Assembly (NCBI GenBank): GCA_011682385.1
Contig: JAACET010000012.1
Coordinates: 1-32,123, forward strand
Length of the DNA stretch: 32,123 nt
Reading direction: 5' to 3'
DNA from: Actinomycetota bacterium
GTDB lineage: Bacteria > Planctomycetota > Phycisphaerae > JAACET01
Shown here: one piece after another, positions 3,001 to 21,437 of the stretch
How positions within the stretch are numbered: the stretch's first letter is position 1
Layout: every line of letters begins with the position of its first letter
The notes under the pieces: model-generated
Databases searched by the model: none
What the model was told of the DNA's origin: nothing
Seen by the model: the letters and a program-made list of their open reading frames with translations, nothing else
Position numbers and translations under genes: made by a program

Positions 3001-6000
3001 GCCCCGGCGGCTGGGGTTTACTACCTGGAAGTAGTAAATCCGTTCAGTTTCGGGATTGATTACCAGTTGTCATTCAGCAATGGTCCACACGCCTCCCTCG
3101 GCGGTGTCAACGTCGTCGGCGATTATGACGCCAGCTACCATGATGGCACCGACTGGGCTGACGGCGTCAACATCGCCACCGGCAACGGCGGGGACCTCGG
3201 GGCTGTGGTCATCTCCAATGAGAGTCTCTCCACCGTAGCCGCAGCCTTTGGCGGGGGCGATCTGGTCGCCTTCCAGGCCGGCCAACTTGGTCACCTCGAA
3301 GATGGCGAGTATTCTGCTTCGAACCAGGTTACCTCGGAGGGCAACATAGGCCGCGTGGCCGCGACCAATACATACATCGACGCCACCATCGAGGCCGGCG
3401 CTTCGGGTGGCTTCTACAACAACAACGCCTACATTCAGAACATCTCCGCCGTCACGGACTACATCACCTTGAACGATATCTCGGCTACAGGGAGTATCGG
3501 CGTAATCGAGATAGGCGGGGACTTGATGACTGGCATCACTATTACCCTCAACAGCGATGGCGTGGGCTCCGGAGGCCGATCTGACCTGATTCACGTTGGC
3601 GGAGATTTTGTTGCCCCGTTACTGCAGCACGGACCGGGCGGCGACTTTGGCTACATCTACGTCGGCGGGACCATCAACGTAGATTACGGCAGTTGGATCG
3701 GATCACTCGAAGAGACTACCTATAGCGACGGGCGGACAACGATTCTTAATGACGACGGTGGCGGACAATTGACCATCAGCCCTGCGGAAATCGAGCTGGG
3801 CGGTTTGGATGAATTTGGCCAGCCGCTTGTTGACCATACCACTTACTCTTTCTCGATTATCCCAGTGGATGATTCAGAAGGCGGTGTCGGTGGAGTCATT
3901 GCTAACCTGAGCTTCAATGGTTCAGCCTCGCTGAATGCTACTGGCATGGTCCAGATTTCTGATCTGGATCTCGATGCTGCCGGCTCGGATACCACCATAG
4001 GCATTGGCGGCTCTGGCACAGTGGATATCTACTACGTTCACGGCGGACAGATTGAAACCTTTAACAATAACACGCCGGGCCGACTTGTGTCCGGCTCGTT
4101 AGGCGGTATTGGTGATTCAAGTCTGCATTTGGCCGGCGACCTGGGGGTGTGGGATTACCCCGGCTCGACCGGGGCCTGGCTGTTTGGCAATGACGATGCC
4201 CCCACATCGGCCGGAATCACCATTGAGCCGCAATACGGCTGGTTCCACGGCAAGATCAATGGGCTTAATGTTACCGGCGATCTGGGAAGTGCCTGGATCG
4301 GCGGGTCCTTAGGCGATCTGCGGGTTCTCGGTGAAATCGGAACCGTGCGCGTCAATGCCGACGGCATAACTCAGGGCGGAGAATGGGACGACTGGGACGG
4401 CATTAACGGTCTCGTCTGGTCGCAAACCAGGATCGGCGCTATTTACGTAGGTGACGGCCTGTCTGATGACGGCGGATCGGACTTGGCTATGGCCGCTATT
4501 ATGAGCAGCGGTTCCATCGGTTCGGTCTATATCTCCGGCCCACGCTATGAACAAAACGCCCCCTCCGATGCGGGCCTGGATGAAACACTCAAGCAGCCCA
4601 TGGTTTTCGGGGAACTCAACGGCTCGGTCTTTGCCATGACCAACGATTCCATTGAGGTCATTTCGGACTGGCGTTGGCCCAACATTACCGAGTCGGTCGA
4701 AGTCGATGCCATCAACCAGGTCATCGGCAGCAACGGTGCGGTCAACACAGCCTTGATCGGAGCTGTGGGATTAGATTCCTTCCACTGTTTCAAGGGTACC
4801 TTTACCAACACGGCCAGTGTGGGCACGGTGAGTTTTTCCGGCGCGGGTGCCGAGATCACCGGTTCGGAAATCTTTGCTTTGGACGTAGGCAAGGTCAGTA
4901 CTAGTGCTGATTCTAACGGAATTAATTACTCGTATATTTCCGGCGTGTCGGCTGCTGACGATGGGCTAACCATTGGCCAAGTATTAGCCGGTGGGCCAGG
5001 AATGTCCAACTCCAGCCTGAGTTCCAACGGCGGCAACATTGGCTCGGTCAAAGGTGTGGGTCCGGTCGCAGACATCAGGGACAGTAAATTCACCTCCACG
5101 GACGGGATGAAATATATTAGCGCTCGCGACATTAACGACAACGAGTTCCACATGCCCGGAGAATTGGAACAAATGCACGCCAGCCGCGATATATTTGATA
5201 ATGAAATCAGCGTAGGTGCTTTGGGAACATTTACCGCCGCCGGGAACTTTACGGATAACGAAGTTACTGTAGCTGGCGTCGTAAAGAGCATTGACGTCAA
5301 AGGCTATTTCGATTCTGTCCTTATCTTGCAGGGCCCCAGTACCGCATACTTGCAATCGCTGACGGTCGTCGGCAACATTGCCGGGACCATAACTTCTGCC
5401 GGCAAGATCGGAAAAATAATCTCCAAAACTGGCGCTATAACGGCAGATACCAGCACTCTCTTGGGCGGCTGGGACACGGACATAGAGCTCATTGAGACTG
5501 CCTTGGGCTATACCGGCACATTGGATGTGGACGGATCACTTGGCAGATTCTATTCCTACGTCTCGTTGGGCGATGCCCCTACCGCGCCGGCTGTCGCTCC
5601 GCAGACTTTCAACATCAGAGGCGACCTGGATTACCTGAAGGTCGGCAAAGGGGTTACAGCGCACCTTTACGCTAATCTGAACGTCGGCGGAGACGTCGGC
5701 ACTATGGATATCGACGGAACCTTCTACTCTAACACCAATATCAACGGAAATCTCACCAAGCTCACCCTTGACGGCGCCTTGGGCGGTCCAATCGGCGGAA
5801 CTGATTACGGAAACCTGACGGTATTTGGTTATATCAAAAGTATGAAATTTAACGCCGCCAGCGACCTCGTTGCCGACCTGACGGTTGGTGGCTCGCTCAG
5901 CAAGCTTTACATGAGGGGTGGTAGCATATTAGGTGATATCACCAGCCTGTACGGTTCACTTAGTTATATTTATGTAATGAACGGAGACATTGGTGGAACT

Positions 6001-9000
6001 TTGACAGCCCCATCCATTGGAACCGTCAGAGTCGTGAATGGCTCAATCACTGCTGACGTCACTGCCAACGATGGCGGCATAAAATATCTCTACGTCAGGG
6101 GTGGCGATTTGGATGCTAATGTCACTGCCGCCGACGGCCGCATTGACAGCTTGTACATATATAACGGCGACGCTACAGCCGGGCACACCATCGAGGCCAG
6201 TGCCGGCTTTGGTAGAGTGTCCATTAGTAACGGCGATCTGGACGCCGACCTCGTTTCCGGCGGAATCATCAAGAGCCTGATTGTCAGGGGCAGTGACCTC
6301 ACCGGCGATGTCATCTCCGATGGTGAAATCTGGTACATGAACATTGCCGGGGCCATCGACAACGCCACCGTTCGCAGTGGCGGGCAGATCAAAAGGTTTT
6401 ATGCCGGCAGTTTGAATGCCGCCATCATCTCCTCTGCCTGGAACATCGGTACTGTGCTTATTAAGGGTAACATGGCCAATAGTTCTTATCTCCTGGCCGG
6501 CTACGATGTGGGCGAAGACGGAATCATCGGCACCGCAGATGATAATTTGCTCAATGGCGGGGTGGGTCACTCGGGGAACATTAAATCTTTGACTATTATG
6601 GGAATTCTGGACGGCACCGGCGGACCCACGGTCATAGCTGCTGGCATTGATCCAGTTGGCCTTGGCCCAGCCGATGGCCAAAGCGACATAACCAGAATGT
6701 TCGTTAGGGGTGGATTCTTAACTCCCGCCAATATTGCCGTCTTGGCTGACACCGGCATCTACGCACCGTTTGTCACCCTAGCTACCGCCGCGGGCGTTAC
6801 CGTTGTCAGCGGCATCACCACCGTGCTGAACGGAACGGGGACAGATTTTGGGCCTGACACAGCCAGCAATACTTTGACTGATGGGGACCTGACGTTGACG
6901 CTCACGGGAGCCGGCCGAGCCAACTATAACCCAGCCACTGGCGCTTTGGTTCTGGAGCGAACCACCTCCCGCAGCACCTTGACCTTGAGATACACTGGTG
7001 TCGGAGCTTATCCGACCACCATCGACATCACCGGCTCTGATGACAGCGGCTTGGCAGCCCTCAGGATAATGGGCAATGTTACCCTTGGTGACGTACAGAT
7101 AGACGGCCTCGTCAGGACCATGACAATCGTCAGTGTAGCCGACGACTCCACTTGGTCTCTGCCCGGCGGCGTAACTTCTGCCAAGCTCGCCTCCCTGACC
7201 GGTGTTGACGTCACTGCCGGCGAAGTCCGCACCTGGACCATGACCGGTGCATTCAATTCCACCGGTTTTGGTGGTAGCTTCTCCGCTGATGCCGTCAAGT
7301 CCTTCCGCACCACCGGCGACATGCAGGCCGACCTTACAACTACTCTCGGCGACGCCACTACGGTCTACATCCGCAACGGCAATCTTACCGGCGATCTGGA
7401 CATCCGCGGCACTCTCAAGACCCTGACGGTAACCAACGGCCTCAGCGGCCAAGTTGACGTTGGGCTCGGGGATATATACACGCTAAAGACGGGCAGTTTG
7501 AGCGGGGTGGTCGATGTGGCCCGCGGATTGAGCAAGAATGTCACGATAACCACCGGTGATTTCAGCGGAACATTTGACTCAGCCATGGGCATCAGCAAAT
7601 TCACCGTCAGCAGAGGGAATTTCAGTGGGGCCTTGAGCACTCGCGGCGACCTGCGGACTCTCTCCGCTGCCCGTGGCGAAATGAGCGGCCAAGCTTGGTC
7701 CGGAGGCTCAATCAGAACGGCAAAGTTCCTTAGTATGGATAGCGGATTCGTCGCCGCCTCAGCCGATCTTTACACCGTCACCATTAGGGGCGATATGCTC
7801 AGCAGTTGGCTCTTTGCCGGATTTGATCCTGGTGATGATCTGGCTATAGGAGGGGCCGGGGATGATGCCGATGCTCCACTGGGTGGCACCATTAAGAGAG
7901 TAACCATCTACGGTGATATGGGACTGTCGACGATCTCTGGGGCTGTGGGGCCCGGAGCTGATGGGTATGTGGGTACTGGTGATGACGTGGTGGCGGGCAC
8001 CGGCTATGTTTATCGGGTGACGGTCTACGGCCGAATCTACGGTAATTCAAACGAGGATCAAGCCTACGGCGTATATGCCGCCAGCAACATGCCGATCGTT
8101 TATCAGTATAGGAATCAGCCCTTTATCCAGAACCAAAATGCTCGTGTTGACACCATGGCCTCCATGGCCGGCAATTTAAACGTTACCGACCTGAGCATCA
8201 CTTACAACTCCCTCATCGTGGACTTTAACCACCCCTTGAATTTCGACACCATTGATGCTACCACCTTTACGCTTTTGGTCTCAGTGGATAGCGACTTCGC
8301 TACGCTCGCCGACAATACGGATATCACCACCGGTGGGCTCAGCACCACCACCTACGACAGTGACGATTACGCAGTCACCCTGACCTTGGTTGGCGACACC
8401 TGGAACACTTTGGGCCTGGGCGACTATTATCAATTGACCATTGACGGTGAAACGGCCGTTGACCCTGAGGTGGTTACCGACCTCAGGGCCAGTATGCTCG
8501 ATGGTGAATTCAGCGGTACGTATCCCAGCGGTAACGGCAGCCCCGGCGGAGACTTCGTTTGGGAGGGCTTCCTGGCCGATGTGGACGATGATTTTGAAGA
8601 CGCTCTTGACGTCGGTTCTCTTGTAGTGCTCGATGGCGGAACACTCCTCTTCGGCTCGGCCTTCGAGAGCACTTCCGACGTGGACATCTACGGCTTCTCG
8701 GGCATAGCCGCCGATTACTTTGCCGTTGAATACCTCACCGGACCGATGGCCAAGTTAGCCCTGTTTTTCCAGGACGACCAGGGCACGCTGGCGGATACAA
8801 CCGACGACTTCTTCGAAGCTGTAGCTCGCTATGAGAATATGGAGCTTTCGACTGATACTATCTTCCAGGCCTTTGAGCTTCCCGAAACAGGCGACTACTA
8901 TCTGGCTGTAGTTGCGAACTCTGATACCGGAACCTACCAGCTCGAAATGACCATGAGTTCCAGTGATACCAATCTTGTTGCTGATTTGGGCGGTTCCCTG

Positions 9001-9897
9001 CCCACCGGCGAAGAGATCGCCTACGTTAGTAATAACATCGGCGATAACAACAACAACCTCGGGGCCAACGATCCCAAGCAGTTGGTCTATCTGAACTTCG
9101 ACGGCGGAACCACCACAGATTTTACGGACTCTTCGTACGTAGGTTTTGAGGTAACGGTAGAAGCCTTTGATTCCTCCCTGCTCGATGCCGCCGTGGCTGG
9201 TTACGAGGACACCCTTATCAATGGCGGCACGGTCGATAGTACAACAATAACCGGAATTGTTGATAACATCATAAGTATCTTCCAGAATACAGCTGCTTCG
9301 CACCCAGCCGGTGCATTGACCGTCAACGAGATTGACGTCAGCAATCCCGTCGATTGGGCCACTTACACAGCCGCTACGGAGGGCCTATGGTTCACCACTG
9401 TTGACCCCGCTACGGCCCAGGGCTTGGACCCCACGGCGGACTTTACCACCATCTTTATCGGCCGAGAGACTGTGCTCTCAGGAACTACTGGCCTAGGCTT
9501 GGCCAGCAGCATCGATTTTGCCAATCTGGATAAGGCTGACAACGCCTTGGTTTTCGCCCAGAACTTTGCAGGTATGTCTTTAGCGGGAAATACGACTGAT
9601 AAGCTCAACGAATACAGCCGGGCCTTTGCCAATACTACTGCTCACGAACTGGGACACGTTCTCGGCCTAAATCACCAGCCAACAGACTTTGTTACCTATG
9701 CCTTGTTGGCTGACGATCCGGACAACAATGACCTTACAGCCGACGATTCCAACACCGGTGTAGGGCTGATGGCTTATAAACCGAATCCACAACGCACGGG
9801 AGAGTTAAATGAATTAGGTACCGCAACCCTGACCAGCACAGAGTTCCCCGTCGGGTGGATTGATACCCAGGACCTGCTCTTAAGGTGGTTAGCCTGA
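1..9897 (+). CDS. Giant secreted repeat protein with C-terminal metzincin protease (5' partial)
   Basis: The reading frame is open at the left window edge. The GTG at 7 is only the first possible start in view, so the true start and signal peptide are probably outside; 3296 residues are visible from it. Residues about 193-775 form three tandem ~200-residue propeller-like units (starting near 193, 393 and 600) rich in L-Y-G/A-V and I-D/N-T-x-T-G. A PPC-like domain follows (about 925-1026). Then comes a very long G/D/N-rich region (about 1030-2690) with short hydrophobic strands every ~20 residues, probably a beta-solenoid. An Ig-like stretch (2710-2855) and a second PPC-like domain (2859-2985) precede the protease. 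The C-terminal domain has HELGHVLGLNH at 3213-3223 (zinc His3213, His3217, His3223; Glu3214) and a Met-turn at Met3255, as in metzincins. I infer a surface or extracellular protein. No PEP-CTERM or other sorting tail is evident. Specific substrates cannot be told. Confidence 0.9.
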   Translation, partial: GGVLVGAIPHPTESSPREYIAAADSLTSSEAIGVFPGGEISPGITVNTDMLTIIPSDSDEGLGSDVQAIAMDSNGDIFVVDMNLFRGVVIADDPDTGLGRDAVSLAVDSAGDFYGVDNHTFAAGQIIPNPYADPDNPNALPNLLNVQALASQADGTMYAVDMGARTLRQVYADGSTNLIGQLIDHIASARQYTEVRSLDLDSSETLYGLGKTTDDLGSETGSHQFLITINTTTAKVTRGQELDTEMAALAIDTADNFYGATAGSLYTIDTSDGTTTEIAAFTVAGDALTEDMEAITFIQDQLYGVTAGHLYAIDTATAVCTQLTEQEYPIGGLLSLAYDQTNSASLWATTVEDSQSNLVKIPLAATLTSVDDTTGSDALLDLLQDSTEQYTYINVHALTFDRSDTGDLYAIADSFDLYSATTTERVLLTIDESTGEVTEVVQLSGGVDLDSLAFDSSGPPSVLYGVNHATDSLVTVNTGTGATAAVGVLGLGADVEGIEFADIGSDYLFAVTGSNLYVVDKTDASSSLLGDTQQTVLSCLSYDETQAGLLWATTETTEVDQSLLIRINLSSTLVSTTEAGNPTVRVARLIDSAESTFGYDNVHALEFDGTTLYGIGTLVDINPLDATNPASTDPILITINTTDGTVTQIADISGDANDLSTLAFDGTDWFGVDPADDDLLDVNITTAATAALGTLTQTGIVGLDFVDSTLYAVTTDTLYTVNPATGDCTEVGPVGGIGTAMTSLTNDPNDTERLFSTSPDADGVYQLVKLFLDPDDVGYDFGKMIIGGTLSGEISTPKSIDVIEMGWLWGNVTVDDNLGDIILTHAGGAMPAGDDTYTPDNGSLVHVGGTLNMLDSRSGTLYTAVQVENDSDVDDPSSTLYELEVFPGGMNDAAIDAAWLDGDLIDYSNDSVQNAQFLAHPTGYFNLVGELPLVDDVLDTSDWYAFGLMAGQTIVIDGSLSGYAVLYDSDSYWMDSFGYETNEDWGVGSRGLTAKPITFTAPAAGVYYLEVVNPFSFGIDYQLSFSNGPHASLGGVNVVGDYDASYHDGTDWADGVNIATGNGGDLGAVVISNESLSTVAAAFGGGDLVAFQAGQLGHLEDGEYSASNQVTSEGNIGRVAATNTYIDATIEAGASGGFYNNNAYIQNISAVTDYITLNDISATGSIGVIEIGGDLMTGITITLNSDGVGSGGRSDLIHVGGDFVAPLLQHGPGGDFGYIYVGGTINVDYGSWIGSLEETTYSDGRTTILNDDGGGQLTISPAEIELGGLDEFGQPLVDHTTYSFSIIPVDDSEGGVGGVIANLSFNGSASLNATGMVQISDLDLDAAGSDTTIGIGGSGTVDIYYVHGGQIETFNNNTPGRLVSGSLGGIGDSSLHLAGDLGVWDYPGSTGAWLFGNDDAPTSAGITIEPQYGWFHGKINGLNVTGDLGSAWIGGSLGDLRVLGEIGTVRVNADGITQGGEWDDWDGINGLVWSQTRIGAIYVGDGLSDDGGSDLAMAAIMSSGSIGSVYISGPRYEQNAPSDAGLDETLKQPMVFGELNGSVFAMTNDSIEVISDWRWPNITESVEVDAINQVIGSNGAVNTALIGAVGLDSFHCFKGTFTNTASVGTVSFSGAGAEITGSEIFALDVGKVSTSADSNGINYSYISGVSAADDGLTIGQVLAGGPGMSNSSLSSNGGNIGSVKGVGPVADIRDSKFTSTDGMKYISARDINDNEFHMPGELEQMHASRDIFDNEISVGALGTFTAAGNFTDNEVTVAGVVKSIDVKGYFDSVLILQGPSTAYLQSLTVVGNIAGTITSAGKIGKIISKTGAITADTSTLLGGWDTDIELIETALGYTGTLDVDGSLGRFYSYVSLGDAPTAPAVAPQTFNIRGDLDYLKVGKGVTAHLYANLNVGGDVGTMDIDGTFYSNTNINGNLTKLTLDGALGGPIGGTDYGNLTVFGYIKSMKFNAASDLVADLTVGGSLSKLYMRGGSILGDITSLYGSLSYIYVMNGDIGGTLTAPSIGTVRVVNGSITADVTANDGGIKYLYVRGGDLDANVTAADGRIDSLYIYNGDATAGHTIEASAGFGRVSISNGDLDADLVSGGIIKSLIVRGSDLTGDVISDGEIWYMNIAGAIDNATVRSGGQIKRFYAGSLNAAIISSAWNIGTVLIKGNMANSSYLLAGYDVGEDGIIGTADDNLLNGGVGHSGNIKSLTIMGILDGTGGPTVIAAGIDPVGLGPADGQSDITRMFVRGGFLTPANIAVLADTGIYAPFVTLATAAGVTVVSGITTVLNGTGTDFGPDTASNTLTDGDLTLTLTGAGRANYNPATGALVLERTTSRSTLTLRYTGVGAYPTTIDITGSDDSGLAALRIMGNVTLGDVQIDGLVRTMTIVSVADDSTWSLPGGVTSAKLASLTGVDVTAGEVRTWTMTGAFNSTGFGGSFSADAVKSFRTTGDMQADLTTTLGDATTVYIRNGNLTGDLDIRGTLKTLTVTNGLSGQVDVGLGDIYTLKTGSLSGVVDVARGLSKNVTITTGDFSGTFDSAMGISKFTVSRGNFSGALSTRGDLRTLSAARGEMSGQAWSGGSIRTAKFLSMDSGFVAASADLYTVTIRGDMLSSWLFAGFDPGDDLAIGGAGDDADAPLGGTIKRVTIYGDMGLSTISGAVGPGADGYVGTGDDVVAGTGYVYRVTVYGRIYGNSNEDQAYGVYAASNMPIVYQYRNQPFIQNQNARVDTMASMAGNLNVTDLSITYNSLIVDFNHPLNFDTIDATTFTLLVSVDSDFATLADNTDITTGGLSTTTYDSDDYAVTLTLVGDTWNTLGLGDYYQLTIDGETAVDPEVVTDLRASMLDGEFSGTYPSGNGSPGGDFVWEGFLADVDDDFEDALDVGSLVVLDGGTLLFGSAFESTSDVDIYGFSGIAADYFAVEYLTGPMAKLALFFQDDQGTLADTTDDFFEAVARYENMELSTDTIFQAFELPETGDYYLAVVANSDTGTYQLEMTMSSSDTNLVADLGGSLPTGEEIAYVSNNIGDNNNNLGANDPKQLVYLNFDGGTTTDFTDSSYVGFEVTVEAFDSSLLDAAVAGYEDTLINGGTVDSTTITGIVDNIISIFQNTAASHPAGALTVNEIDVSNPVDWATYTAATEGLWFTTVDPATAQGLDPTADFTTIFIGRETVLSGTTGLGLASSIDFANLDKADNALVFAQNFAGMSLAGNTTDKLNEYSRAFANTTAHELGHVLGLNHQPTDFVTYALLADDPDNNDLTADDSNTGVGLMAYKPNPQRTGELNELGTATLTSTEFPVGWIDTQDLLLRWLA

Positions 9898-10084: not shown

Positions 10085-10999
10085 GTGCTTATAATGCGGG
10101 CAATCTTCATATCTTACGCGGTTTTTGCTGCGCTTGTGCTAGCTCCAGCTGATCTTCAGGCAGGTGGCGATATCGAAGCGATCACTCGGCCCAGTAAGGA
10201 TCCGACGCTTTCGTTCGTGCGGGCTGGGCGAATAGCTGAGGTACTGGTCAAAAAAGGAGACGTCGTTCAGGCTGGACAGGTACTCGTCCGCCAGGACGAC
10301 GAAGCCGAACAGGTACAACTGGAGCAACTCCAAGCCCAGGCTGAGGATACCACCAGAATAGCTGCGGCACAGGCAGACCTGGATCAGAAAAAAGTGGACC
10401 TGAAAAAATACGAAGAGGCGAAAACCAAAGGTGTGGCTACGGACCTGGAAGTCGAACACGCCAAGCTGGATGTAACTATCGCCCAGTTGTCCCTCAGATT
10501 AGCCCAGTTTCAGCACGAGCAGGACAAGAGAAAACATACTGAAGCGAAAATCCAGGTTGAGCGGATGAAATTGGCCAGCCCGATTGCCGGCAAGATTGAA
10601 GAAATGTTCGTGCAACCCGGCGAATCTGTTGAGGCTCTGGAGGATGTGGTCCAGATAGTCAAGATTGATCCGCTTTGGATCGATGTGCCTGTGCCGTTGG
10701 GCAAAGCTCAAGGCCTCAAAAAAGGACAAGTAGCAGCAATCGAGTTCATTGGCTCATCTAGCCCGTCCCCTAAGGGCAGGGTCGTTCATATAGCGACTGT
10801 GGCTGACGCGGCCAGCAATACCTTGACCGTACGAGTTGAGGCTGCAAATGCAAAAGGCCGACCGGCCGGCGAACACGTCAGGGTCCGCTTTGCGGATTCG
10901 GCGGAAACAGCCAGTTCACAGACAACCAACACAGAGCCTGCCAATATTTCTCATCTCCGCGAAGAACAAGGAGTAATTAATGGCCAAACAGCAAAATGA
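10085..10999 (+). CDS. HlyD/RND-type periplasmic adaptor protein
   Basis: This is a membrane-fusion (periplasmic adaptor) protein of about 304 residues. The GTG start is favoured because AAAGGGG ends 7 nt before it; an in-frame ATG at 10094 is the alternative. The N-terminus is a signal peptide (M-R-A-I-F-I-S-Y-A-V-F-A-A-L-V-L) with likely cleavage after L-Q-A. The mature protein has a split biotinyl-lipoyl-like domain (GRIAEVLVKKGDVVQAGQVL, then SPIAGKIEEMFVQPGESVE), a coiled-coil hairpin rich in K/E/Q between the halves, and a beta-barrel-like end (IDPLWIDVPVPL onward). Family members bridge inner-membrane pumps and outer-membrane channels in the periplasm. It is the first gene of a five-gene run and its 3' end overlaps the next gene by 20 nt, indicating co-translation. 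No pump or TolC-like gene is adjacent, so its partner is unknown; the neighbouring HlyD fusions are candidates. Confidence 0.85.
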   Translation: MLIMRAIFISYAVFAALVLAPADLQAGGDIEAITRPSKDPTLSFVRAGRIAEVLVKKGDVVQAGQVLVRQDDEAEQVQLEQLQAQAEDTTRIAAAQADLDQKKVDLKKYEEAKTKGVATDLEVEHAKLDVTIAQLSLRLAQFQHEQDKRKHTEAKIQVERMKLASPIAGKIEEMFVQPGESVEALEDVVQIVKIDPLWIDVPVPLGKAQGLKKGQVAAIEFIGSSSPSPKGRVVHIATVADAASNTLTVRVEAANAKGRPAGEHVRVRFADSAETASSQTTNTEPANISHLREEQGVINGQTAK

Positions 11000-11366
11000 A
11001 CCGAGCGAAAAACCCATCGAAGAACAGGCACGCGAACAGACCGGCCAAAAACAGATCCGCCTGCGCATCGACGAGCGAAACATGCGGACCAGTTATGCCA
11101 ATGCCTTCCGCACGAACGGAACGGCTGAGGAAGTTATGCTGGACTTCGGTCTGAATCTTGTTGCCCCCGCCGCACAGCAGCCAGCAGGGGGCCAGGGACA
11201 GCAGCAGCAACCGGAGATAATCTTCAATGTCAGCGACCGGGTAATTCTGAATTATTACTCGGCTAAGCGTCTGGCTATCACGTTGAGCCAACTGATCCGA
11301 CGGCACGAGGACCAATTTGGCGAATTGGAGATGGATGTGGCCAAACGCCGTAAGAATGGTCTCTAG
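10980..11366 (+). CDS. DUF3467 family protein
   Basis: A 128-residue soluble protein with no signal peptide or membrane segment. The start is clear: AAGGAG lies 6 nt before the ATG, inside the end of the adaptor gene. The charged N-terminus is followed by the DUF3467 pattern: an I-R-L-R-I-D strand, S-Y-A-N-A-F, E-V-M-L-D-F-G, then after a Q/G/A-rich linker the segment S-D-R-V-I-L-N-Y-Y-S-A-K-R-L and R-R-H-E-D-Q-F-G-E-L. The family is small, usually about 90-110 residues, and has no established biochemical role. The Q/P/G-rich insert near residues 61-79 makes this one slightly long. Its place between two adaptor genes and its overlap with the first suggest a cytoplasmic accessory, perhaps a chaperone or regulator of the export machinery; that is inference only. 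Confidence 0.75.
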   Translation: MAKQQNEPSEKPIEEQAREQTGQKQIRLRIDERNMRTSYANAFRTNGTAEEVMLDFGLNLVAPAAQQPAGGQGQQQQPEIIFNVSDRVILNYYSAKRLAITLSQLIRRHEDQFGELEMDVAKRRKNGL

Positions 11367-11395: not shown

Positions 11396-13288
11396 ATGAC
11401 AGTGGACGGCACAGGAGCTTCTCAAGAAGCGCCAAGACCAAGCCCGGCTGAGATGGTAGATCGACTCAGTCGCTTCGACGGTCGTCCGGAAGAGTTTCTG
11501 GTAAATCTGCTGGAAACGCAGTGCCGACTAGCCGACGCCACCGGGGGGGCCATTCTACGGCCGGGGGCCAACAAGGCAGCGGAGGTCCTGGCTTTATATC
11601 CGCCGCCTAGCCAGGGGGCCACGCCGCCGGTCTGGCTGGCTCAGGCTGTAGAGTCGGCCGGCAAAGCTATGCCCACCAATGCTACGGTGGTCAAACCACT
11701 GCACAGCCCCGATGAACTGTATGGACAACCGGCCCAACAATATCTGCTAATGATACCTCTTCGCGGCGGACCCAGCGGCCAGGATACCAGAGGCTTGGCT
11801 GCCTTCTTCGTAAAGGCCTCTAATCCCGCGTCTTTGGCGGTCAGCCGGGAACGTCTCGAATTGACTATTAGTCTGCTCAGCCTTTACGAGATGCGACTTA
11901 CACTACAGCAGCGTCAGGTGAGCCTGCAACGCCTGCGGACGGCTATGGAAACCCTGTCAGTGATCAATGATCAGGACCGCTTCGCGGCCGCGGCTATGGC
12001 CTTCTGTAATGAAATCGCTTCCCGCTGGCAGTGCGAACGAGTCAGCCTTGGATTCCTCAAGGGTCGATACGTCCATTTACGGGCTATGAGCCATACTGAG
12101 AAATTCAGCCGAAAGATGAAGCTCATTCAGGACATTGAATCGGCTATGGAAGAGTGCCTGGATCAAGACGTCGAAATAGTACATCCGGCTGAAAACGGGT
12201 CCAGCTATGTTAGTCGCTCTGCCGGCGAATTATCCAAGAGACATGGTCCCACAGCTATCGTTAGTTTGCCGTTGCGGAAAGGCGGCGGGGTGATCGGCGT
12301 TGTTACGGCTGAACGGTCGGTTGATGAGCCATTCAGTCTGGATCAGATCGAATCCCTGCGCCTGGTCTGCGAGTTGTGCACGGTTCGGCTGGTAAATCTG
12401 CATGAACATGATAAATGGTTCGGAGCCAAAGCGGCGGACAGCCTGCGCGAAGGGATAGCTGCACTGGTAGGTCCCAAACATGCCTGGGCAAAACTGGCGG
12501 CAGTTCTGATTTTTCTGGCCATACTTTTCATGGTCGTTGCCAAAGGCACTTATAAGGCGGAGGCGCCCTTTGTGCTGGAAGCAATTCAACGGCAAGTGAT
12601 ACCGGCACCTTTCGAGGGATATCTGGCCAGCGTGGCAGTTGAGCCTGGCGATGCCGTAGAGGCAGACAAGACGATATTGGCTACACTGGAGACGGTTGAG
12701 CTGGAAGTAAAACTGGCTGAGGTCCGAGCTGAACAGAATCGTTACCTGACTGAGGCAGCTGCGGCTATGCGAGACGATCGGCGAGCTGAGGCACAGATCG
12801 CACAGGCTCGGGCGAAGCAAGCCAGGGCTCAGATGGAGCTTCTGAAATATCGAATAAATCAGGCCCGGATAACTTCACCCGTCAGCGGACAGGTACTTAG
12901 CGGGGATTTGAAAAAGCAGATTGGTGCGCCGGTCAAAACCGGCGACGTTCTCTTTGAGGTCGGGACTTTGGGTAAGGAGTCCCTGCGAGCTGAGCTATCT
13001 GTGCCGGAAGATGAGATTGCAGAAGTCAAGGTTGGCCAAGAGGGCGAGCTGGCTACGGCTTCTGATCCGGGTATAAAGGTCAAATTCGTGGTGGTGCGGA
13101 TCAATCCGGTGGCTGAAGTGGTGGATCAGAAAAACGTTTTCAAGGTCCGCGTGAGGCTGCTTGAAACTAACGAGCGCATGAAACCGGGGATGGAAGGGGT
13201 GGCTAAAATATCCATCGATAAACGTAGCTATGCCTGGCTCTGGACACACAAAATAACTAATTGGATAAAGATGAAATTGTGGCTGTGA
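11396..13288 (+). CDS. GAF-domain/transmembrane/HlyD fusion protein
   Basis: A 630-residue fusion. Residues about 15-335 are cytoplasmic and GAF-like, probably two modules. The first runs through about residue 170, and the second contains the segments ASRWQCERVSLGFLKGRYV and IVSLPLRKGGGVIGVVTAER. A single membrane segment follows (about 367-382). The remainder is a HlyD-type adaptor: lipoyl half near PAPFEGYLASVAVEPGDAVE, a coiled coil of A/E/R/Q, second half near ITSPVSGQVLSGDLKKQIG, a barrel domain, and a final W-rich amphipathic tail. Topology would place the GAF part inside and the adaptor part in the periplasm. GAF domains normally bind small ligands or mediate dimerisation, so this could gate secretion by a cytoplasmic signal (inference). 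GAGG lies 9 nt before the ATG. It is 29 nt after the DUF3467 gene and 15 nt before the M50 gene. The GAF-HlyD combination is uncommon among classical transport adaptors. Confidence 0.8.
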   Translation: MTVDGTGASQEAPRPSPAEMVDRLSRFDGRPEEFLVNLLETQCRLADATGGAILRPGANKAAEVLALYPPPSQGATPPVWLAQAVESAGKAMPTNATVVKPLHSPDELYGQPAQQYLLMIPLRGGPSGQDTRGLAAFFVKASNPASLAVSRERLELTISLLSLYEMRLTLQQRQVSLQRLRTAMETLSVINDQDRFAAAAMAFCNEIASRWQCERVSLGFLKGRYVHLRAMSHTEKFSRKMKLIQDIESAMEECLDQDVEIVHPAENGSSYVSRSAGELSKRHGPTAIVSLPLRKGGGVIGVVTAERSVDEPFSLDQIESLRLVCELCTVRLVNLHEHDKWFGAKAADSLREGIAALVGPKHAWAKLAAVLIFLAILFMVVAKGTYKAEAPFVLEAIQRQVIPAPFEGYLASVAVEPGDAVEADKTILATLETVELEVKLAEVRAEQNRYLTEAAAAMRDDRRAEAQIAQARAKQARAQMELLKYRINQARITSPVSGQVLSGDLKKQIGAPVKTGDVLFEVGTLGKESLRAELSVPEDEIAEVKVGQEGELATASDPGIKVKFVVVRINPVAEVVDQKNVFKVRVRLLETNERMKPGMEGVAKISIDKRSYAWLWTHKITNWIKMKLWL

Positions 13289-13303: not shown

Positions 13304-15499
13304 ATGCCTGTGGATCGGCCTACATTCAGCGAGAGTTGGTACCGGGTCGCGGATCTGCGGCCGCGATTGCGTAGCACGGTTCAAATCCATCGCCAGTACT
13401 TCCGGGGGCAGATGTGGCACGTTGTCCAGGACCCGACCAATAATCAGTTCTTCAGATTGAACGACTCGGCCTACCACTTTGTAGCTCTGCTCGACGGCCA
13501 ACGGTGTGTATCCGAGGTTTGGTACATTTGCAATGAGGAACTGGCTGACAGTGCTCCTACTCAAGGGGAGGTAATCCAGCTTCTGGGCCAACTGTATGCA
13601 GCCAATCTTCTGCAGGCAGAGCTGCCTCCGGACGCTGAAGGATTATTCAATCGCTATCGTAAACGCATCAAACGCGAGGTGCAAGGGCATCTGACGAACC
13701 TGCTGTTTGTGCGTATCCCATTATTCGATCCGGACCACTTTCTGGATCGCTGGGTGGGCGTGTTCGGCAATATCTTCAGTTGGTACGGTCTGGCGGTCTG
13801 GCTGGTGTTGGTAGGCACGGGGCTGTATTTTGTGGCTGGGCGAGTTGGGGATATGGCCAGTCGTGCAGGAGGGATTCTGGATCCGGCTAATTTGCCTTAC
13901 CTGTACTTGAGTTTCATATTTGTGAAGATTTGCCATGAGTTCGGACACTCTTTCGCTTGCAAAAAATTCGGACGATCCGACGGCAGCGGCGGCGAGGTCC
14001 ACGTGATGGGGATTATGCTTCTGGTCTTTATGCCCATGCCATATATGGATGCCACCAGCGCCTGGGCCTTCCGCAAGGGCCGGACCCGGGCGGCGGTAGC
14101 GGCATCAGGGATGTATGTGGAACTGGCTATCGCGGCCGTGGCAGCTATGATTTGGGCTAAGACGGCCAGCCCCATCGCCTACAACGTGATGTTCATTGCC
14201 AGCGTCTCGACACTTCTATTCAACGCTAATCCGCTGCTGCGATATGACGGATACTACATACTTTCCGATTGGCTGGAAATAGCTAATCTAGCCCCGAGGT
14301 CCCGGCAATATATTTATTATCTGGTCAAGCGCTACGTCTGGGGCGTGGGTCGAGCTCAGAACCCGGCACATACGCCTGGAGAAAAATTCTGGCTGCCGGT
14401 TTACGGTATTTCCTCTACGCTTTTCCGCGTTTTCATCGTCACGAAGATATTACTGTTTGTCGCGGGCAAGCTTTTTATTGTGGGGGTCATTTTGGCTCTG
14501 GCGGCTGTGGTGGCCTGGGTATTTGTACCACTGGGCAAATTCCTGCATTATCTGGGTACCAGCGGGGAGTTGGCCCGGGTACGGCTGCGGGCGGTGGTCT
14601 CCACGGCGGCAATGGTAGCTGGAATTGCAATAATCATCGGATTGATCCCCGCGGCGGATCGCGGCAGGATCGAAGGAGTGGTCGAGCCGAGCCGACTGGC
14701 TATCGTGCACATGGCGGCTGACGGATTTGTTACAGACTTTATGAGCTCTGAACAAAAGGTTTCTCCGGATGGGCCGCCACTACTGAAAGCACAAAATCCT
14801 GACCTGGAAACTCAGTTGGAGCAATTAGAGGCGCGGAGGGAGCAACTAAGGGTTCAAAAACGTCTGGCCCAGACGCGGGAGGTGGCTGGGACGCAAATTC
14901 TGAGTAAGCAGATCGCGGCACTGGAAGAACAGATTCAACGGGTAGAAGATCAACTACGGTCATTGGAACTTCATTCGCCGTTAGAAAGTGAAGGAATATG
15001 GATAGCTCCCAACATCGAGCGGTTCAAAGGTGCGTTCATACGTCGGGGAGATAGAGTGGGGTTGGTGGCAAGCCTGGATGATCTATTCATCCGAGCTACC
15101 GCTGGGCAGGAGGTGGCGGCAAGACTAATAGCTGAGGCTAAGGGAAAATACGGGACGGTGGAAATTCGCGTTAAGGGCAGGCCTGATATGGAGCTACGGG
15201 GCAATATTGAAAAAATTCTGCCGGCTGGTCAGGAAAGATTGCCCTCGGCGGCTTTGGGCTATGCGATGGGCGGCTCGATGGCTACTGAACCGGGAGACGA
15301 AAAAGGTATAAAAACGGCTGCGCGGTTTTTCGAGATACACATTGAACCTATTGTCAGTGAAGGTGCGGAAAATAGAGAAAACGTGCGTCTGTTCAGCGGA
15401 CAACGGGTAATTGTTCGATTCGAAACGCCGCCCAAACCGCTGATGGTTCAGTGGTACAGATCCCTGTTACAGATGCTGCAACGAAGGTTCCATATCTAA
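13304..15499 (+). CDS. PqqD-like/M50 site-2 protease/HlyD fusion membrane protein
   Basis: A 731-residue polytopic protein. The N-terminal ~100 residues resemble a PqqD-type peptide-binding winged helix (WHVVQDPTNNQFFRLNDSAY). The membrane core carries the M50/site-2-protease zinc site HEFGH (His211, Glu212, His215) and the second motif NPLLRYDGYY with the third ligand Asp315. Several membrane segments run from about 150 to 447. The last ~280 residues are periplasmic and adaptor-like, with a lipoyl-type half (VEPSRLAIVHMAADGFV), a coiled coil (about 500-560), a second half near SEGIWIAPNIERFKGAFIRR and a barrel end. This matches the architecture often annotated as putative peptide zinc metalloprotease (YydH-like). 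Such proteins are linked to processing of exported peptides. Both metal motifs are intact, so it is probably active. It is followed after 2 nt by the SecA-like gene. The substrate may be a leader or fragment of the giant secreted protein, which is inference. Confidence 0.85.
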   Translation: MPVDRPTFSESWYRVADLRPRLRSTVQIHRQYFRGQMWHVVQDPTNNQFFRLNDSAYHFVALLDGQRCVSEVWYICNEELADSAPTQGEVIQLLGQLYAANLLQAELPPDAEGLFNRYRKRIKREVQGHLTNLLFVRIPLFDPDHFLDRWVGVFGNIFSWYGLAVWLVLVGTGLYFVAGRVGDMASRAGGILDPANLPYLYLSFIFVKICHEFGHSFACKKFGRSDGSGGEVHVMGIMLLVFMPMPYMDATSAWAFRKGRTRAAVAASGMYVELAIAAVAAMIWAKTASPIAYNVMFIASVSTLLFNANPLLRYDGYYILSDWLEIANLAPRSRQYIYYLVKRYVWGVGRAQNPAHTPGEKFWLPVYGISSTLFRVFIVTKILLFVAGKLFIVGVILALAAVVAWVFVPLGKFLHYLGTSGELARVRLRAVVSTAAMVAGIAIIIGLIPAADRGRIEGVVEPSRLAIVHMAADGFVTDFMSSEQKVSPDGPPLLKAQNPDLETQLEQLEARREQLRVQKRLAQTREVAGTQILSKQIAALEEQIQRVEDQLRSLELHSPLESEGIWIAPNIERFKGAFIRRGDRVGLVASLDDLFIRATAGQEVAARLIAEAKGKYGTVEIRVKGRPDMELRGNIEKILPAGQERLPSAALGYAMGGSMATEPGDEKGIKTAARFFEIHIEPIVSEGAENRENVRLFSGQRVIVRFETPPKPLMVQWYRSLLQMLQRRFHI

Positions 15500-15501
15500 T
15501 C

Positions 15502-17490
15502 GTGATCTCCATTCCAAGTACAACATGGCGGATGCTGGCCCAGCGAAGAGCCGGCGAGAACCTGGCCAAAGGGCTGGATGCTGTTTGCGACAAGGCTGTG
15601 GGGCTGGCCGGTAGGATGGTACCACGCCAGCGGCAGTTTCTCGAGCGAGCCAAGCGCATAGTCGCCTTGGAAGAACGCTTTACCCGGATGGCTGACGCGA
15701 ACCTGCGTGAACAGGCTGCCCAACTGCGTGACGTCTTTCGATGTGGGCGTGAAACTCCGGCACAACTTGAATTAGCTTTCGCTTTGGTTCGGGAAGTGGC
15801 GGCTCGGCAGTTGGGCGAAAGACCATACTTGGTGCAGATCACCGGAGCCTTGGCGCTTGAGGCCGGCTGTGTCGCAGAGATGGCTACCGGTGAAGGCAAG
15901 ACCTTGGCGGCGACGATGCCGGCGACTATTGCGGGCTGGCGGGGTCGTGGCTGCCATGTCATTACGGTAAATGATTATCTGGCTCAACGCGATGCCGCGT
16001 GGATGGGTAAGATATACCGCTTCTGCGGGTTGAAGGTGGCCCATATCGAACCGGGCATGTCCTCGGCAGACCGTCGGACGGCATACTGGGCGGATATCAC
16101 CTACTGCACAAACAAAGAAGTTACCGCAGACTTTCTGCGAGATCGCCTGGCTCTGGGCAAATGTCGGGATCTGTCATCGGCTTTGCTGGCCAAGATGGCC
16201 GGCGGAAACATTGGCCAAATTGATCGGCTGGTACAACGAGGTCTGCATTACGCCATCGTAGATGAGGCCGACTCGGTCCTTATTGACGAGGCGGTCACGC
16301 CGTTAATTATCTCCGGTGATGCGCCCAATCCGGAGCAAATTGAGACTTTCACTCAGGCGGCTAAGTTGGCTGCGGAATTAGATTCCGAACGGGATTATCG
16401 CTTCGACTATCGCTATCGTGAAGTAGAACTGACGGCAGTGGGTAAGCAGCATTTGGATGAGTTAGTTGAGCCGCTGGGCGGGCTATGGAAGGGTATTCGC
16501 CGTCGTGAGGAAATGGTTATTCAGGCACTGACGGCTAAAGAACTTTATCAACAGGATAAACATTACGTGATAGATGAAGGTAAGGTGGTTATAGTCGATG
16601 AGTTCACGGGACGACTTATGCCCGATAGAACGTGGCGAGACGGGCTGCACCAGGCTATCGAGGCCAAGGAAACTCTTGAGGTCAATCTGCCCAAGGATAC
16701 GTACGCACGAGTGAGTTTTCAGCGATTCTTTCGACTGTACCGGCGGCTAAGCGGGATGACCGGAACGGCCAGTGAAGCCTGGCAAGAGTTCTGGCAGATA
16801 TACCATATGCCGGTGGTGGTTATACCGACGAATCGGCCTTGCATACGTGAGTATCGGATGGACGCGGTGTATGCCACAGAAAAGTCTAAGTGGGCAGCAA
16901 TTGTAGAAGAAATCAAGCAAGGGCATGAGACTACCCGTCCAATCCTGGTGGGAACTCGCAGCGTCAGGGCCAGTGAACACCTGAGCCAATTACTGCGGGA
17001 AGAGAAACTGGAACATGAGGTGCTCAATGCGGTTCGGCACGCTGAAGAAGCACAAATAGTGGCTGGGGCAGGGGGTGCGGGGAAAATTACTGTGGCTACG
17101 AACATGGCGGGCCGAGGCACGGATATCAAACTCGGTCGGGGCGTGGCTGAACTGGGCGGCCTGCACGTTATAGCGAGCGAAAGACATGAGGCGGGTCGAG
17201 TTGATCGGCAACTGTTCGGGCGATCCGCACGCCAAGGAGACCCGGGAAGCGCCCAAGCGATAGTCAGCCTGGAAGATGAGTTGGTGCAGCGTTATGCCAA
17301 GCATCTGAGCGGCTCACTTTGCCGGCGCTACGGGGGAAGTAACAGTAACGTGTCCTCAAGGCTAAGCCGGCGAGTATTCCACCTGGCTCAACGGCGGGCA
17401 CAACGCATGGCCCTGCGGCAACGCAAGGGGGTGCTTCGCAGCGACGATTGGCTGGAAGAATACCTCGGTTTCGCCGGCAGTGAGCTGTAA
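15502..17490 (+). CDS. SecA-like preprotein translocase ATPase lacking the C-terminal third
   Basis: A SecA paralogue of 662 residues from the GTG at 15502, which lies just after the M50 stop; no strong RBS is visible and the M at 15532 is an alternative. The motor is complete: Walker A ATGEGKT (Lys133), VDEADSVLIDEA (Asp254-Asp257), the preprotein cross-linking region with KHYVIDEGKVVIVDEFTGR, GMTGTASEAW, and GRGTDIKLGRG (537 onward) with the arginine-finger block RVDRQLFGRSARQGDPGS. Canonical SecA is about 840-900 residues. This one stops after the first helical-scaffold helix (HLAQRRAQRM...LRSDDW) and lacks the wing domain, the rest of the scaffold and the C-terminal zinc-binding tail. It resembles accessory SecA2-type motors in being trimmed. 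It probably drives export of special substrates through SecYEG or a modified channel, alongside the four upstream genes. A housekeeping SecA should be elsewhere in the genome. Confidence 0.9.
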   Translation: MISIPSTTWRMLAQRRAGENLAKGLDAVCDKAVGLAGRMVPRQRQFLERAKRIVALEERFTRMADANLREQAAQLRDVFRCGRETPAQLELAFALVREVAARQLGERPYLVQITGALALEAGCVAEMATGEGKTLAATMPATIAGWRGRGCHVITVNDYLAQRDAAWMGKIYRFCGLKVAHIEPGMSSADRRTAYWADITYCTNKEVTADFLRDRLALGKCRDLSSALLAKMAGGNIGQIDRLVQRGLHYAIVDEADSVLIDEAVTPLIISGDAPNPEQIETFTQAAKLAAELDSERDYRFDYRYREVELTAVGKQHLDELVEPLGGLWKGIRRREEMVIQALTAKELYQQDKHYVIDEGKVVIVDEFTGRLMPDRTWRDGLHQAIEAKETLEVNLPKDTYARVSFQRFFRLYRRLSGMTGTASEAWQEFWQIYHMPVVVIPTNRPCIREYRMDAVYATEKSKWAAIVEEIKQGHETTRPILVGTRSVRASEHLSQLLREEKLEHEVLNAVRHAEEAQIVAGAGGAGKITVATNMAGRGTDIKLGRGVAELGGLHVIASERHEAGRVDRQLFGRSARQGDPGSAQAIVSLEDELVQRYAKHLSGSLCRRYGGSNSNVSSRLSRRVFHLAQRRAQRMALRQRKGVLRSDDWLEEYLGFAGSEL

Positions 17491-17733: not shown

Positions 17734-18546
17734 ATGGATTCGAATCTTAGTCATTTAGACAAGCTCGAAAACCAGAGCATTTTCATTATTAGAGAGGCCT
17801 ACAGCCAATTCAGAGATGTGGCCATGCTCTGGTCGATCGGGAAGGATTCAACTGCCCTTCTGTGGCTGGTCCGCAAAGCCTTTTTCGGCAAGATGCCGTT
17901 TCCGGTGGTGCATATCGACACAACCTACAAGTTTAAGGAAATCTACGACTTCAGGGACAAATATACCAAAGAATGGGACTTGAGTCTTATCGTGGCCAAA
18001 AACGAAGAGGCTCTAGGTGAGAATATGGGTCCGACCAAGGGAAAGTTCCAATGCTGCAACGAACTAAAGACCGTTGCCCTGAAACAGGCCATTGCCAAGC
18101 ACGGTTTCAAAGCTTTGTATCTGGGGATCAGACGTGATGAGCACGGCATCCGCGCCAAGGAGAGAGTCTTTAGCCCCAGAGATGAGGACTTCGAATGGGA
18201 CTATAAGAATCAGCCTCCCGAACTCTGGGATCAGTACAAAACCAAGGCAGCCGAGGAAGAGCACATCCGGGTGCATCCGTTGCTCGGCTGGCGAGAGATA
18301 GATGTCTGGGAATATGTCCAAAGAGAAAAGATACCGGCTGTCAATCTATACTTTGCCAGAAACTCCAAACGCTACCGCAGTATCGGATGCGCAACCTGCT
18401 GCTCGCCCGTAGATTCCGAGGCAGACACCATAGACAAGATAGTCGAGGAGTTGAAGACCTCCAGAATTTCCGAGCGGAGCGGACGCGCCCAGGACAAGGA
18501 AGACGACTACATGATGCAGAAATTAAGATCTTTGGGATATATGTAG
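17734..18546 (+). CDS. cysD: Sulfate adenylyltransferase subunit 2 (ATP sulfurylase small subunit)
   Basis: A 270-residue CysD. With CysN it makes adenosine 5'-phosphosulfate (APS) and pyrophosphate from ATP and sulfate in the cytoplasm. The PP-loop SIGKDS is at residues 34-39. Family blocks follow: FPVVHIDTTYKFKEIYDFRD, LYLGIRRDEHGIRAKERVFS, HPLLGWREIDVWEYVQREKI and the R-Y-R-S-I-G-C segment. Length is slightly below E. coli CysD (302). The ATG at 17734 has only a weak CAGGA 11 nt upstream. Its stop is immediately followed by the ATG of cysN, so the two subunits are translationally coupled, as expected for a heterodimer. The IS3 remnant sits just upstream and may have displaced an original promoter. 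Confidence 0.95.
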   Translation: MDSNLSHLDKLENQSIFIIREAYSQFRDVAMLWSIGKDSTALLWLVRKAFFGKMPFPVVHIDTTYKFKEIYDFRDKYTKEWDLSLIVAKNEEALGENMGPTKGKFQCCNELKTVALKQAIAKHGFKALYLGIRRDEHGIRAKERVFSPRDEDFEWDYKNQPPELWDQYKTKAAEEEHIRVHPLLGWREIDVWEYVQREKIPAVNLYFARNSKRYRSIGCATCCSPVDSEADTIDKIVEELKTSRISERSGRAQDKEDDYMMQKLRSLGYM

Positions 18547-19776
18547 ATGGATGTGCTTAGTTTCGTTATCGTAGGCCATGTCGACCATGGCAAGTCGACA
18601 CTGATTGGCAGACTACTTTTCGACACCGATTCGCTCCCCCCGGATAAGATCGAGGAAATCCGAAAGGCCTCCACCGGCCAGGGCAGACGAACCGAATTCG
18701 CCTATCTGCTGGACCACCTCGAGGAAGAACGCCAGCAGGGCATCACCATCGACACCACTCAGGTCTTTTTCAAAACCCCTAAGAGACGCTACGTAATAAT
18801 CGACGCTCCCGGGCACGTGGAATTCGTCAGGAACATGATTACCGGCGCTTCCCAGGCAGAAGCGGCCGTGCTGATCGTCGACGCAGCCGAGGGGGTAAAG
18901 GAGCAAACCAGACGCCATTCATATATGCTCTCGCTGCTGGGGCTGAATCAGGTTGTTGTCGTCCTGAACAAAATGGACCTGGTAGATTTTTCCAGCGAGC
19001 GTTTCGATTCCGTCAAAGAGGATGTCCGGCAATGGCTCGAAGCTATAGGCATCCAGCCCATTCTGTATATTCCCATTTCCGCAATCGAAGGTTACAACAT
19101 CGCCCAAAGGTCTGAGAATATCCCCTGGTACAACGGCCCGGCCTTTCTGGAGAGTCTCGACAGTCTGCACAACAAACAGTCCGCCCGGGACAAACCTATG
19201 CTGCTGCCCATCCAGGACGTCTACAAGATCGCAGATAAGCGGATAAATGTCGGCCGCATCGAGGCCGGTACTATCCAACAAGGCATGGAGATAAAGATCA
19301 TCCCCAGCGGCCAGACAACAACCGTCAATTCCATAGAGAAATTCCTCCAGGACACCGACAAAGCCCTGGCCAGTGAATGCATCGGCATTACAACTGCCGA
19401 TTCCGTCTTCCTCGAACGAGGCAACATAATCTGTTCTCCAGGCAAAGAGCCAACCCTCACCGACAGGATTCCTGCCAGTGTCTTCTGGATGTCAAAACGC
19501 GATTTTACCAAAGGCCAGAAGCTGACCCTGCGATGTGCGACCCAGGAGACCCCCTGCAAAATAGAGACGATCGGCAAAAGGATTAACTCAGCCACGCTCG
19601 AAGTTATTGAAGAAAATGCCGAGGTCCTCAAGAACCTCGAGGTTGCGGAAGTTATTATCAATACCAAAAAGCCCATTGCCATCAGGAACTTCAACGATGT
19701 TCAGGAATTAGGCCGCTTCGTCCTTGTTCAAGATGAAAACACCTGTGCCGGCGGAATCATCACCGGGGTGAATTGA
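18547..19776 (+). CDS. cysN: Sulfate adenylyltransferase subunit 1, GTPase
   Basis: A 409-residue EF-Tu-like GTPase subunit of ATP sulfurylase; GTP hydrolysis drives APS formation by CysD. GTPase motifs are intact: GHVDHGKST at 10-18, DAPGH at 86-90, NKMD at 141-144, with the switch I block [10 protein letters not shown] (61-70). The beta-barrel domains follow and the protein ends at F-V-L-V-Q-D...GGIITGVN. There is no C-terminal CysC (APS kinase) domain, unlike the common bifunctional CysNC, and no cysC nearby. It starts directly after the cysD stop and ends 2 nt before the next gene. The pathway cannot be completed to PAPS from this locus alone. Confidence 0.95.
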
Positions 19777-19778
19777 AA

Positions 19779-21056: not shown

Positions 21057-21095
21057 GATGACTTTGGGGACCCCAAGCGCACAGAGCTTGCACGC

Positions 21096-21400: not shown

Positions 21401-21437
21401 AGGAAGATTCTTGACAATTCGGCCTAAGGACAACAGA

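Follow-up and report, generated by a model that had tools for sequence, protein, structure and literature searches.

A GAF-HlyD protein as a candidate inner-membrane strut in a SecA-type locus associated with LEPR-XLL giant proteins

The closest described system is a locus type reported by Kamneva, Poudel and Ward in 2015 (PMC4452313), which encodes a secondary SecA without the scaffold/wing domain (SecA_SW), an M50-HlyD protein, HlyD/biotin-lipoyl proteins, and a GAF-HlyD-biotin_lipoyl protein. The passages of that paper that deal with the locus give its function as unknown and name no cargo. They propose that SecA together with the M50 protein might stand in for an ABC transporter and treat the GAF protein as one of unclear role, perhaps regulatory or sensory. 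A word search of the main text found no mention of PqqD, DUF3467, or LEPR. The protein that we describe here shares a lipoyl, hairpin, and beta-barrel arm with the adaptors of the MacA, EmrA, and AcrA type. Those adaptors partner with ABC, MFS, or RND pumps, and we know of none that carries cytoplasmic GAF modules. It also resembles the tandem-GAF proteins (PDE2/5/6 and CyaB2) in having two GAF-like modules and a long helical linker, but its output is a membrane span and an adaptor arm instead of a catalytic domain, and its first GAF module is without sequence support. Type I secretion systems have HlyD-type adaptors in common with the operon studied here, and OEP channels are encoded elsewhere in the same genome; unlike a type I system, the operon has no ABC transporter and has a SecA-like ATPase in its place.

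We analyzed a 32,123-nucleotide stretch of DNA (the window), a complete contig of a 2.35-Mb genome that is 89% complete. A same-strand run of genes (+ strand) encodes, in order, a giant exoprotein, an HlyD-type adaptor, a DUF3467 protein, the GAF-HlyD protein, a PqqD-M50-HlyD protein (PqqM50), and a SecA-like ATPase. A sequence-only reading of the GAF-HlyD gene had overlooked this company. The giant exoprotein gene (1 to 9897) is cut at its 5′ end by the contig edge, with 3298 codons present and the frame open to base 1. Its product, a possible cargo, has a C-terminal metallopeptidase-like HELGHVLGLNH motif (HExxH), with Peptidase_M10 and Reprolysin matches below their cutoffs. The adaptor gene (10085 to 10999) encodes a 304-aa RND_mfp-like protein (TIGR01730, 109 bits against a cutoff of 94.9; HlyD_D23, 62 bits). 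The DUF3467 gene (10980 to 11366; 128 aa) lies between it and the GAF-HlyD gene (PF11950, 66 bits; cutoff, 25).

Downstream of the GAF-HlyD gene, a 731-aa protein (13304 to 15499) combines a PqqD domain (13418 to 13612; 23.9 bits, cutoff of 23.4) with an M50 intramembrane metallopeptidase that has its HEFGH motif. It is similar to the daptide protease NF041824 over its PqqD and M50 parts (160 bits over residues 20 to 406, below the cutoff of 300) but differs from it by an added HlyD-like C terminus, and no daptide genes were seen in the window. The HlyD_D23 match of this C terminus is weak (22.7 bits, below the cutoff of 30), as is the HlyD similarity of the M50-like protein in the 2015 passages. 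The run ends with the secondary SecA-like ATPase (15451 to 17490), a 679-codon frame in which SecA similarity starts at codon 61. It matched SecA_DEAD (338.8 bits), P-loop_SecA, and SecA_PP_bind, and SecA_SW was absent in Pfam at an E value of ≤0.1. There is no ABC transporter in the run; the sole ABC protein among the scanned window frames is an ABC-F (Uup-like) protein on the other strand (24106 to 26040). CysD, CysN, phosphodiesterase-like, and sulfatase-like genes come right after the SecA-like gene (17734 to 22846) and may belong to unrelated sulfate-ester metabolism, and a RhuM-family protein is encoded on the minus strand at 28623 to 29723 (PF13310, 396 bits).

The window therefore compares closely with the 2015 locus type. 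It has a second SecA_DEAD protein without SecA_SW, an adjoining M50-like protein with HlyD similarity, and a GAF protein whose GAF, HlyD, and biotin_lipoyl matches all exceed the Pfam cutoffs. A genome-wide search gave two SecA_DEAD frames, one of 704 codons and a longer one of 1177 codons outside the window, and since this longer and shorter pair matches the 2015 description, our finding belongs to the described kind. No OEP (TolC-type) match was found by Pfam among 15 window frames, and OEP genes sit on other contigs of the genome; an OEP gene is optional in the 2015 loci, so membership stands without one. The GAF-HlyD architecture, which the sequence-only reading described correctly, is not the novelty that it was taken for, because the same protein and locus were published in 2015. 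What is added here is the PqqD domain, DUF3467, a tandem-GAF model, and an association with LEPR-XLL proteins.

The GAF-HlyD gene (11396 to 13288) starts with ATG and encodes 630 aa, which we studied with Pfam, AlphaFold2, and structure comparison. The profile search that had been proposed for it gave matches above the cutoff for GAF (PF01590, residues 205 to 331; 27.0 bits, cutoff of 22.4), HlyD_D23 (residues 400 to 599; 45.7 bits, cutoff of 30), and Biotin_lipoyl (residues 401 to 428; 23.7 bits, cutoff of 22.1), and HlyD_3 also matched (residues 492 to 598; 55.9 bits, cutoff of 22.2). Among wider relatives, PF01590 was matched in 24 of 31 and HlyD_3 in 31 of 31 (E ≤ 0.01). The AlphaFold2 model, built on 65 relatives, had a mean pLDDT of 91.0 and a pTM of 0.61. 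It predicted an alpha/beta module at residues 31 to 157 (11486 to 11866), a helix at 159 to 191, a second alpha/beta module at 196 to 338 (11981 to 12409), a helix at 342 to 358, a membrane-spanning helix at 363 to 381 (12482 to 12538), a beta/hairpin/beta arm at 383 to 611 (12542 to 13228) with its alpha-hairpin at 434 to 489, and an end helix at 612 to 629 (13229 to 13282). The lipoyl halves, alpha-hairpin, beta-barrel, and inner-membrane anchor of an HlyD/MFP adaptor were all found (Pfam, model, and span). In structure comparisons, the arm (model residues 363 to 621) aligned with MacA (9qgy_G; Z score, 16.8; root mean square deviation [rmsd], 5.7; 245 residues). The C-terminal helix is aromatic and basic, with W623 and W629 conserved, and probably returns to the membrane surface, where we infer its role to lie.

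The best 19-residue Kyte-Doolittle mean of the protein, 2.55, coincides with the predicted helix at residues 363 to 381, in agreement with the span that had been placed at 367 to 382, and the best such window sits at the same place with a value of ≥1.6 in 63 of 65 relatives. A 12-residue hydrophobic window above 2.0 within the first ∼50 residues was found in 0 of 65 relatives, so on this simple scale the protein has no signal-peptide-like start. The span and the start without a signal peptide fit a topology with the GAF modules in the cytoplasm and the arm in the periplasm. The Pfam matches, the model, and the hydrophobicity profile thus confirm the proposed GAF and HlyD fusion across one membrane span: the protein is a cytoplasmic GAF-type module joined via a single span to an exporter adaptor arm. 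Neither of the outcomes that would have spoken against this fusion materialized: the span lies where it was expected, and the N-terminal region does not have a non-GAF fold, its second module being plainly a GAF domain.

The proposal of two GAF-like modules fared less evenly. The second is backed by both Pfam and fold; its model (residues 173 to 340) aligned with the GAF domain 3ci6_A with a Z score of 17.4 and an rmsd of 2.9 over 150 residues. The first is GAF-like by predicted fold only, with no Pfam GAF match to this part of the 630-aa protein. Both modules together (model residues 12 to 349) aligned with the tandem GAFs of PDE5A (3mf0_A) with a Z score of 16.7 but an rmsd of 10.4 over 303 residues. 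An internal duplication as the origin of the pair was unsupported, with an hhalign probability of ≤4.6% between the GAF1 and GAF2 profiles. Mean conservation was 0.66 for GAF2, 0.59 to 0.65 for the arm, 0.70 for the C-terminal helix, and 0.44 for GAF1, the lowest of the protein apart from the first 14 residues. GAF2 is the best-conserved cytoplasmic part and is therefore unlikely to be mere decoration. Seven closed short frames of 485 to 523 codons (L098, L105, L107, L109, L110, L112, and L113) are without most or all of GAF1, which makes GAF2 and the arm the core. These seven forms are also without an M50 gene directly downstream and perhaps represent a second adaptor type.

What the GAF pair does can be read in two ways. 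We give an even chance to the view that it serves only for dimerization or docking, linking the adaptor to the SecA-like motor or to the cargo as a scaffold that binds no ligand. GAF domains often serve dimerization, and the genes for the motor and the PqqD-M50 protein adjoin the GAF-HlyD gene in most loci; the strongly conserved polar residues of GAF2, on the other hand, are compatible with a ligand as well. The sequence-only reading had suggested ligand-gated or oligomerization-controlled export. The other view, which takes up its ligand idea and is also the suggestion of the 2015 authors, is that the pair is a ligand sensor in which a cytoplasmic nucleotide or metabolite gates the adaptor and hence the exporter. 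The clear and unusually conserved fold of GAF2, its near-invariant polar residues (R239, E248, E252, E253, D256, Q257, R274, and R294), and a tandem layout like that of cyclic-nucleotide phosphodiesterases speak for a sensor. However, this conservation fits docking as well as ligand binding, few of these residues are invariant across 31 more divergent members (E253 and P292), and GAF1 shows little conservation and is absent from the seven short frames. A sensory function appears doubtful on this balance, and we likewise consider true ligand gating by the GAF modules to be unlikely.

The neighborhood is widely conserved. We scanned contigs for GAF-HlyD relatives and analyzed the loci of the best 80 of 117 relatives, and the counts in this paragraph refer to these 80. 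Of the 73 loci in which at least 400 bp of sequence lie beyond the GAF-HlyD gene, 61 have PqqM50 as the very next gene. The remaining 12 under this strict rule are L075, L091, L095, L098, L104, L105, L107 to L110, L112, and L113; among them, L075 (where PqqM50 follows with a larger overlap) and L108 have PqqM50 overlapping or further off, and L112 has it divergently oriented. The SecA-like gene comes next in 47 of 56 loci by a strict gap and in 55 of 56 by order as read from the loci, with only L050 lacking it. Among the 74 loci with enough upstream sequence, 22 have a DUF3467 gene immediately before the GAF-HlyD gene, and an HlyD gene occurs somewhere in 58 of 80. With the window counted and fragments and odd lengths excluded, 60 of 61 PqqM50 frames retain HExxH, and GEGKT and DEAD are each present in 51 of 52 SecA-like frames. 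Of the alignments used, A1 was built without L025 (851 aa) and without the matches L002 and L005, A3 without 16 of the 80 loci (fragments and odd lengths), and A4 without L069, L070, L071, and L092 (long extensions). For DUF3467, a model from 24 members (pLDDT, 76.8) has a strand-strand-strand-helix core; it gave no Foldseek match at an E value of ≤0.001, the best VIA Z score was 4.8 (COMM domain), and the sequence search returned chance-level matches (best E value, 0.031). SecB was not among the matches listed in either comparison, and the idea of a SecB-like chaperone role for DUF3467 was dropped.

We first spotted the LEPR-XLL motif at the N termini of large frames near these operons. It corresponds to NCBIfam NF012209 (cutoff, 17 bits), which scored above the cutoff in 5 of 10 frames tested and narrowly missed it in 2; the remaining frames carry the motif by eye only. 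In genomes of the window's phylum (Planctomycetota), NF012209 was present in 18 of 294, compared to 0 of 14 control genomes, and a PqqM50 relative (E ≤ 1e−20) in 67 of 294. Among genomes with a close PqqM50 (≥370 bits, a line drawn post hoc at a natural score gap from 371 to 308), 15 of 20 had LEPR-XLL, as did 2 of 47 with a distant one and 1 of 227 with none. The contrast of 15/20 with 3/274 gave a Fisher P value of 2e−18; without the bit score line, the counts were 17/67 versus 1/227. The association held outside the window's class (6/8 versus 3/264; P = 4e−9), by family (9/12 versus 2/81 among 93 families; P = 1e−8), and in the phylum of Desulfosarcina (L086/G297; 4/5 versus 3/242; P = 1e−6); the tests assume independent genomes or families, an assumption that holds only in part. 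Five of the 20 close-PqqM50 genomes are without LEPR-XLL, and its scarcity among the distant ones means that the signal is not general for the whole 2015 family. By the PqqM50 rule, genome G075 was scored as not close, even though its GAF-HlyD protein has 62% identity and LEQRLAL, a variant outside the strict pattern, occurs in a frame close by (L037).

In the window's own genome (89% complete), no LEPR-XLL protein was found by HMM at an E value of ≤0.01. A degenerate DNA pattern for the motif had 29 matches there against 56 for the backward control; the two of these 29 that were followed up outside the window (C35 and C83) are inside unrelated frames, and the match in the window (26564) is within an RhlE-like helicase frame. 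Among 4,101 collected frames of at least 80 residues, of which those of at least 150 were tested, LE.R.L[LM] occurred within the first 150 residues of 15 frames, including one window helicase frame, and the reversed and permuted motifs occurred in 1 each. The N terminus of the window giant lies beyond the contig edge, so that LEPR-XLL can be read only in its homologue (L048/L123), a giant in the same position with 46% identity over the C-terminal ∼380 residues. That homologue starts with LEPRLLL, and FQLETLEPRLLLTT occurs near its start.

LEPR-XLL genes are also physically associated with the operons in both phyla. LEPR frames lie within about 10 kb in 13 of the best 80 of 117 loci (14 frames). 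In close-type genomes of the window's phylum, the linkage is modest, with 3 of 50 HMM matches at most 20 kb from an operon (0.5 expected). The phylum of Desulfosarcina has 4 of its 5 matches near one (one of them by frame end; 0.06 expected). In G406, GAF-HlyD, PqqM50, and SecA-like genes come in this order and lead into the gene of a LEPR-XLL giant, whose start shares 4 bases with the end of the SecA-like frame (L121; contig C21, 6536 to 6539); this overlap suggests translational coupling of motor and cargo. In G471, a 15,080-codon LEPR frame is followed by two DUF3467-like frames, GAF-HlyD, PqqM50, SecA-like, and HlyD genes (L119 and L120). In a genome of the window's genus (G002), the contig with the operon also carries a frame that begins with MKKSKNTFESPPVCEALEPRILLS (L117). 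Contigs C155 and C252 of G298, the genome of L097, hold LEPR-XLL frames of 8807, 6303, and 21117 codons, among the largest met here. The tag is followed by S, D, N, or T plus a small residue in nearly all of 18 frames, usually SA (9 of 18), and this could be a processing site. The literature searched, which excludes preprints and most subscription journals, yielded no paper that links LEPR-XLL with the SecA_DEAD locus. LEPR-XLL is mentioned in passing for a giant Vibrio protein (PMC10868602) and as a transcript name (PMC9611531), with no link to the locus in either passage, and the parts seen of two papers on giant genes (PMC10066038 and PMC12057145) do not mention such a locus.

These associations bear on whether the LEPR-XLL proteins only share a lineage or lifestyle with the operon, leaving the cell by Sec or another system while the operon serves a different cargo. 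The operon and the LEPR-XLL proteins alike cluster in the window's class, and the 3/274 and 3/242 genomes with LEPR-XLL but no close operon would fit such a history. The association nevertheless recurs beyond that class and in another phylum and tracks presence within families, the genes are directly linked to operons, and in 17 of 18 frames the hydrophobic core ahead of the motif is below 2.0 on the 12-residue scale, unlike a signal peptide. We judge shared lineage to be an unlikely explanation. Far more remote is the prospect that the locus is an efflux pump for small molecules whose adaptor acts as a sensor: the HlyD arm is nearest to MacA/EmrA drug pump adaptors, but the gene run has a SecA-like ATPase and a PqqD-M50 protease where an RND, MFS, or ABC pump would be expected.

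That the GAF-HlyD protein is an exporter subunit is very likely, and the LEPR-XLL proteins are probably the cargo. With slightly less assurance, we favor the fuller reading that GAF-HlyD acts as the inner-membrane strut in an exporter, SecA-powered and type I-like, for very large LEPR-XLL exoproteins. Our observations extend to the domain layout with its single span, the conserved order of the genes, the ATPase and HExxH motifs kept in nearly all relatives, and the co-occurrence and linkage with LEPR-XLL proteins; the mechanism that follows is a proposal. In such an exporter, the LEPR-XLL region would act as the export signal. PqqD-type domains bind leader peptides, and the one in the M50 protein would bind LEPR-XLL, with the M50 site perhaps removing the tag. 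The SecA-like ATPase, lacking the scaffold/wing, would push the cargo into a conduit made up of the HlyD arms and the membrane portion of the M50 protein, bypassing SecYEG, and the cargo would exit through a TolC-type channel encoded elsewhere in the genome. The cytoplasmic GAF pair would dimerize, or would dock the complex of motor and cargo to the arm; a small-molecule ligand may or may not take part. Whether all this amounts to a distinct Gram-negative secretion system, with a LEPR-XLL signal read by a PqqD-intramembrane protease fusion, a SecA-like motor without the scaffold/wing, and a GAF-HlyD strut relaying the state of the motor or a ligand to the conduit, is a question to which we give a little under an even chance of a positive answer.

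The protein and the locus type were already known; what is new is a substrate hypothesis that links the 2015 locus with LEPR-XLL proteins. The cluster tracks with giant LEPR-XLL surface proteins, and the cargo of the 2015 locus thereby becomes testable. If LEPR-XLL exoproteins, with frames of up to 21,117 codons, are the cargo, then the locus would give Gram-negative bacteria a way to export proteins that rank among the largest in bacteria, with an assignable export signal (LEPR-XLL) and receptor (the PqqD domain), and the role of the GAF strut would be open to test by simple deletions.
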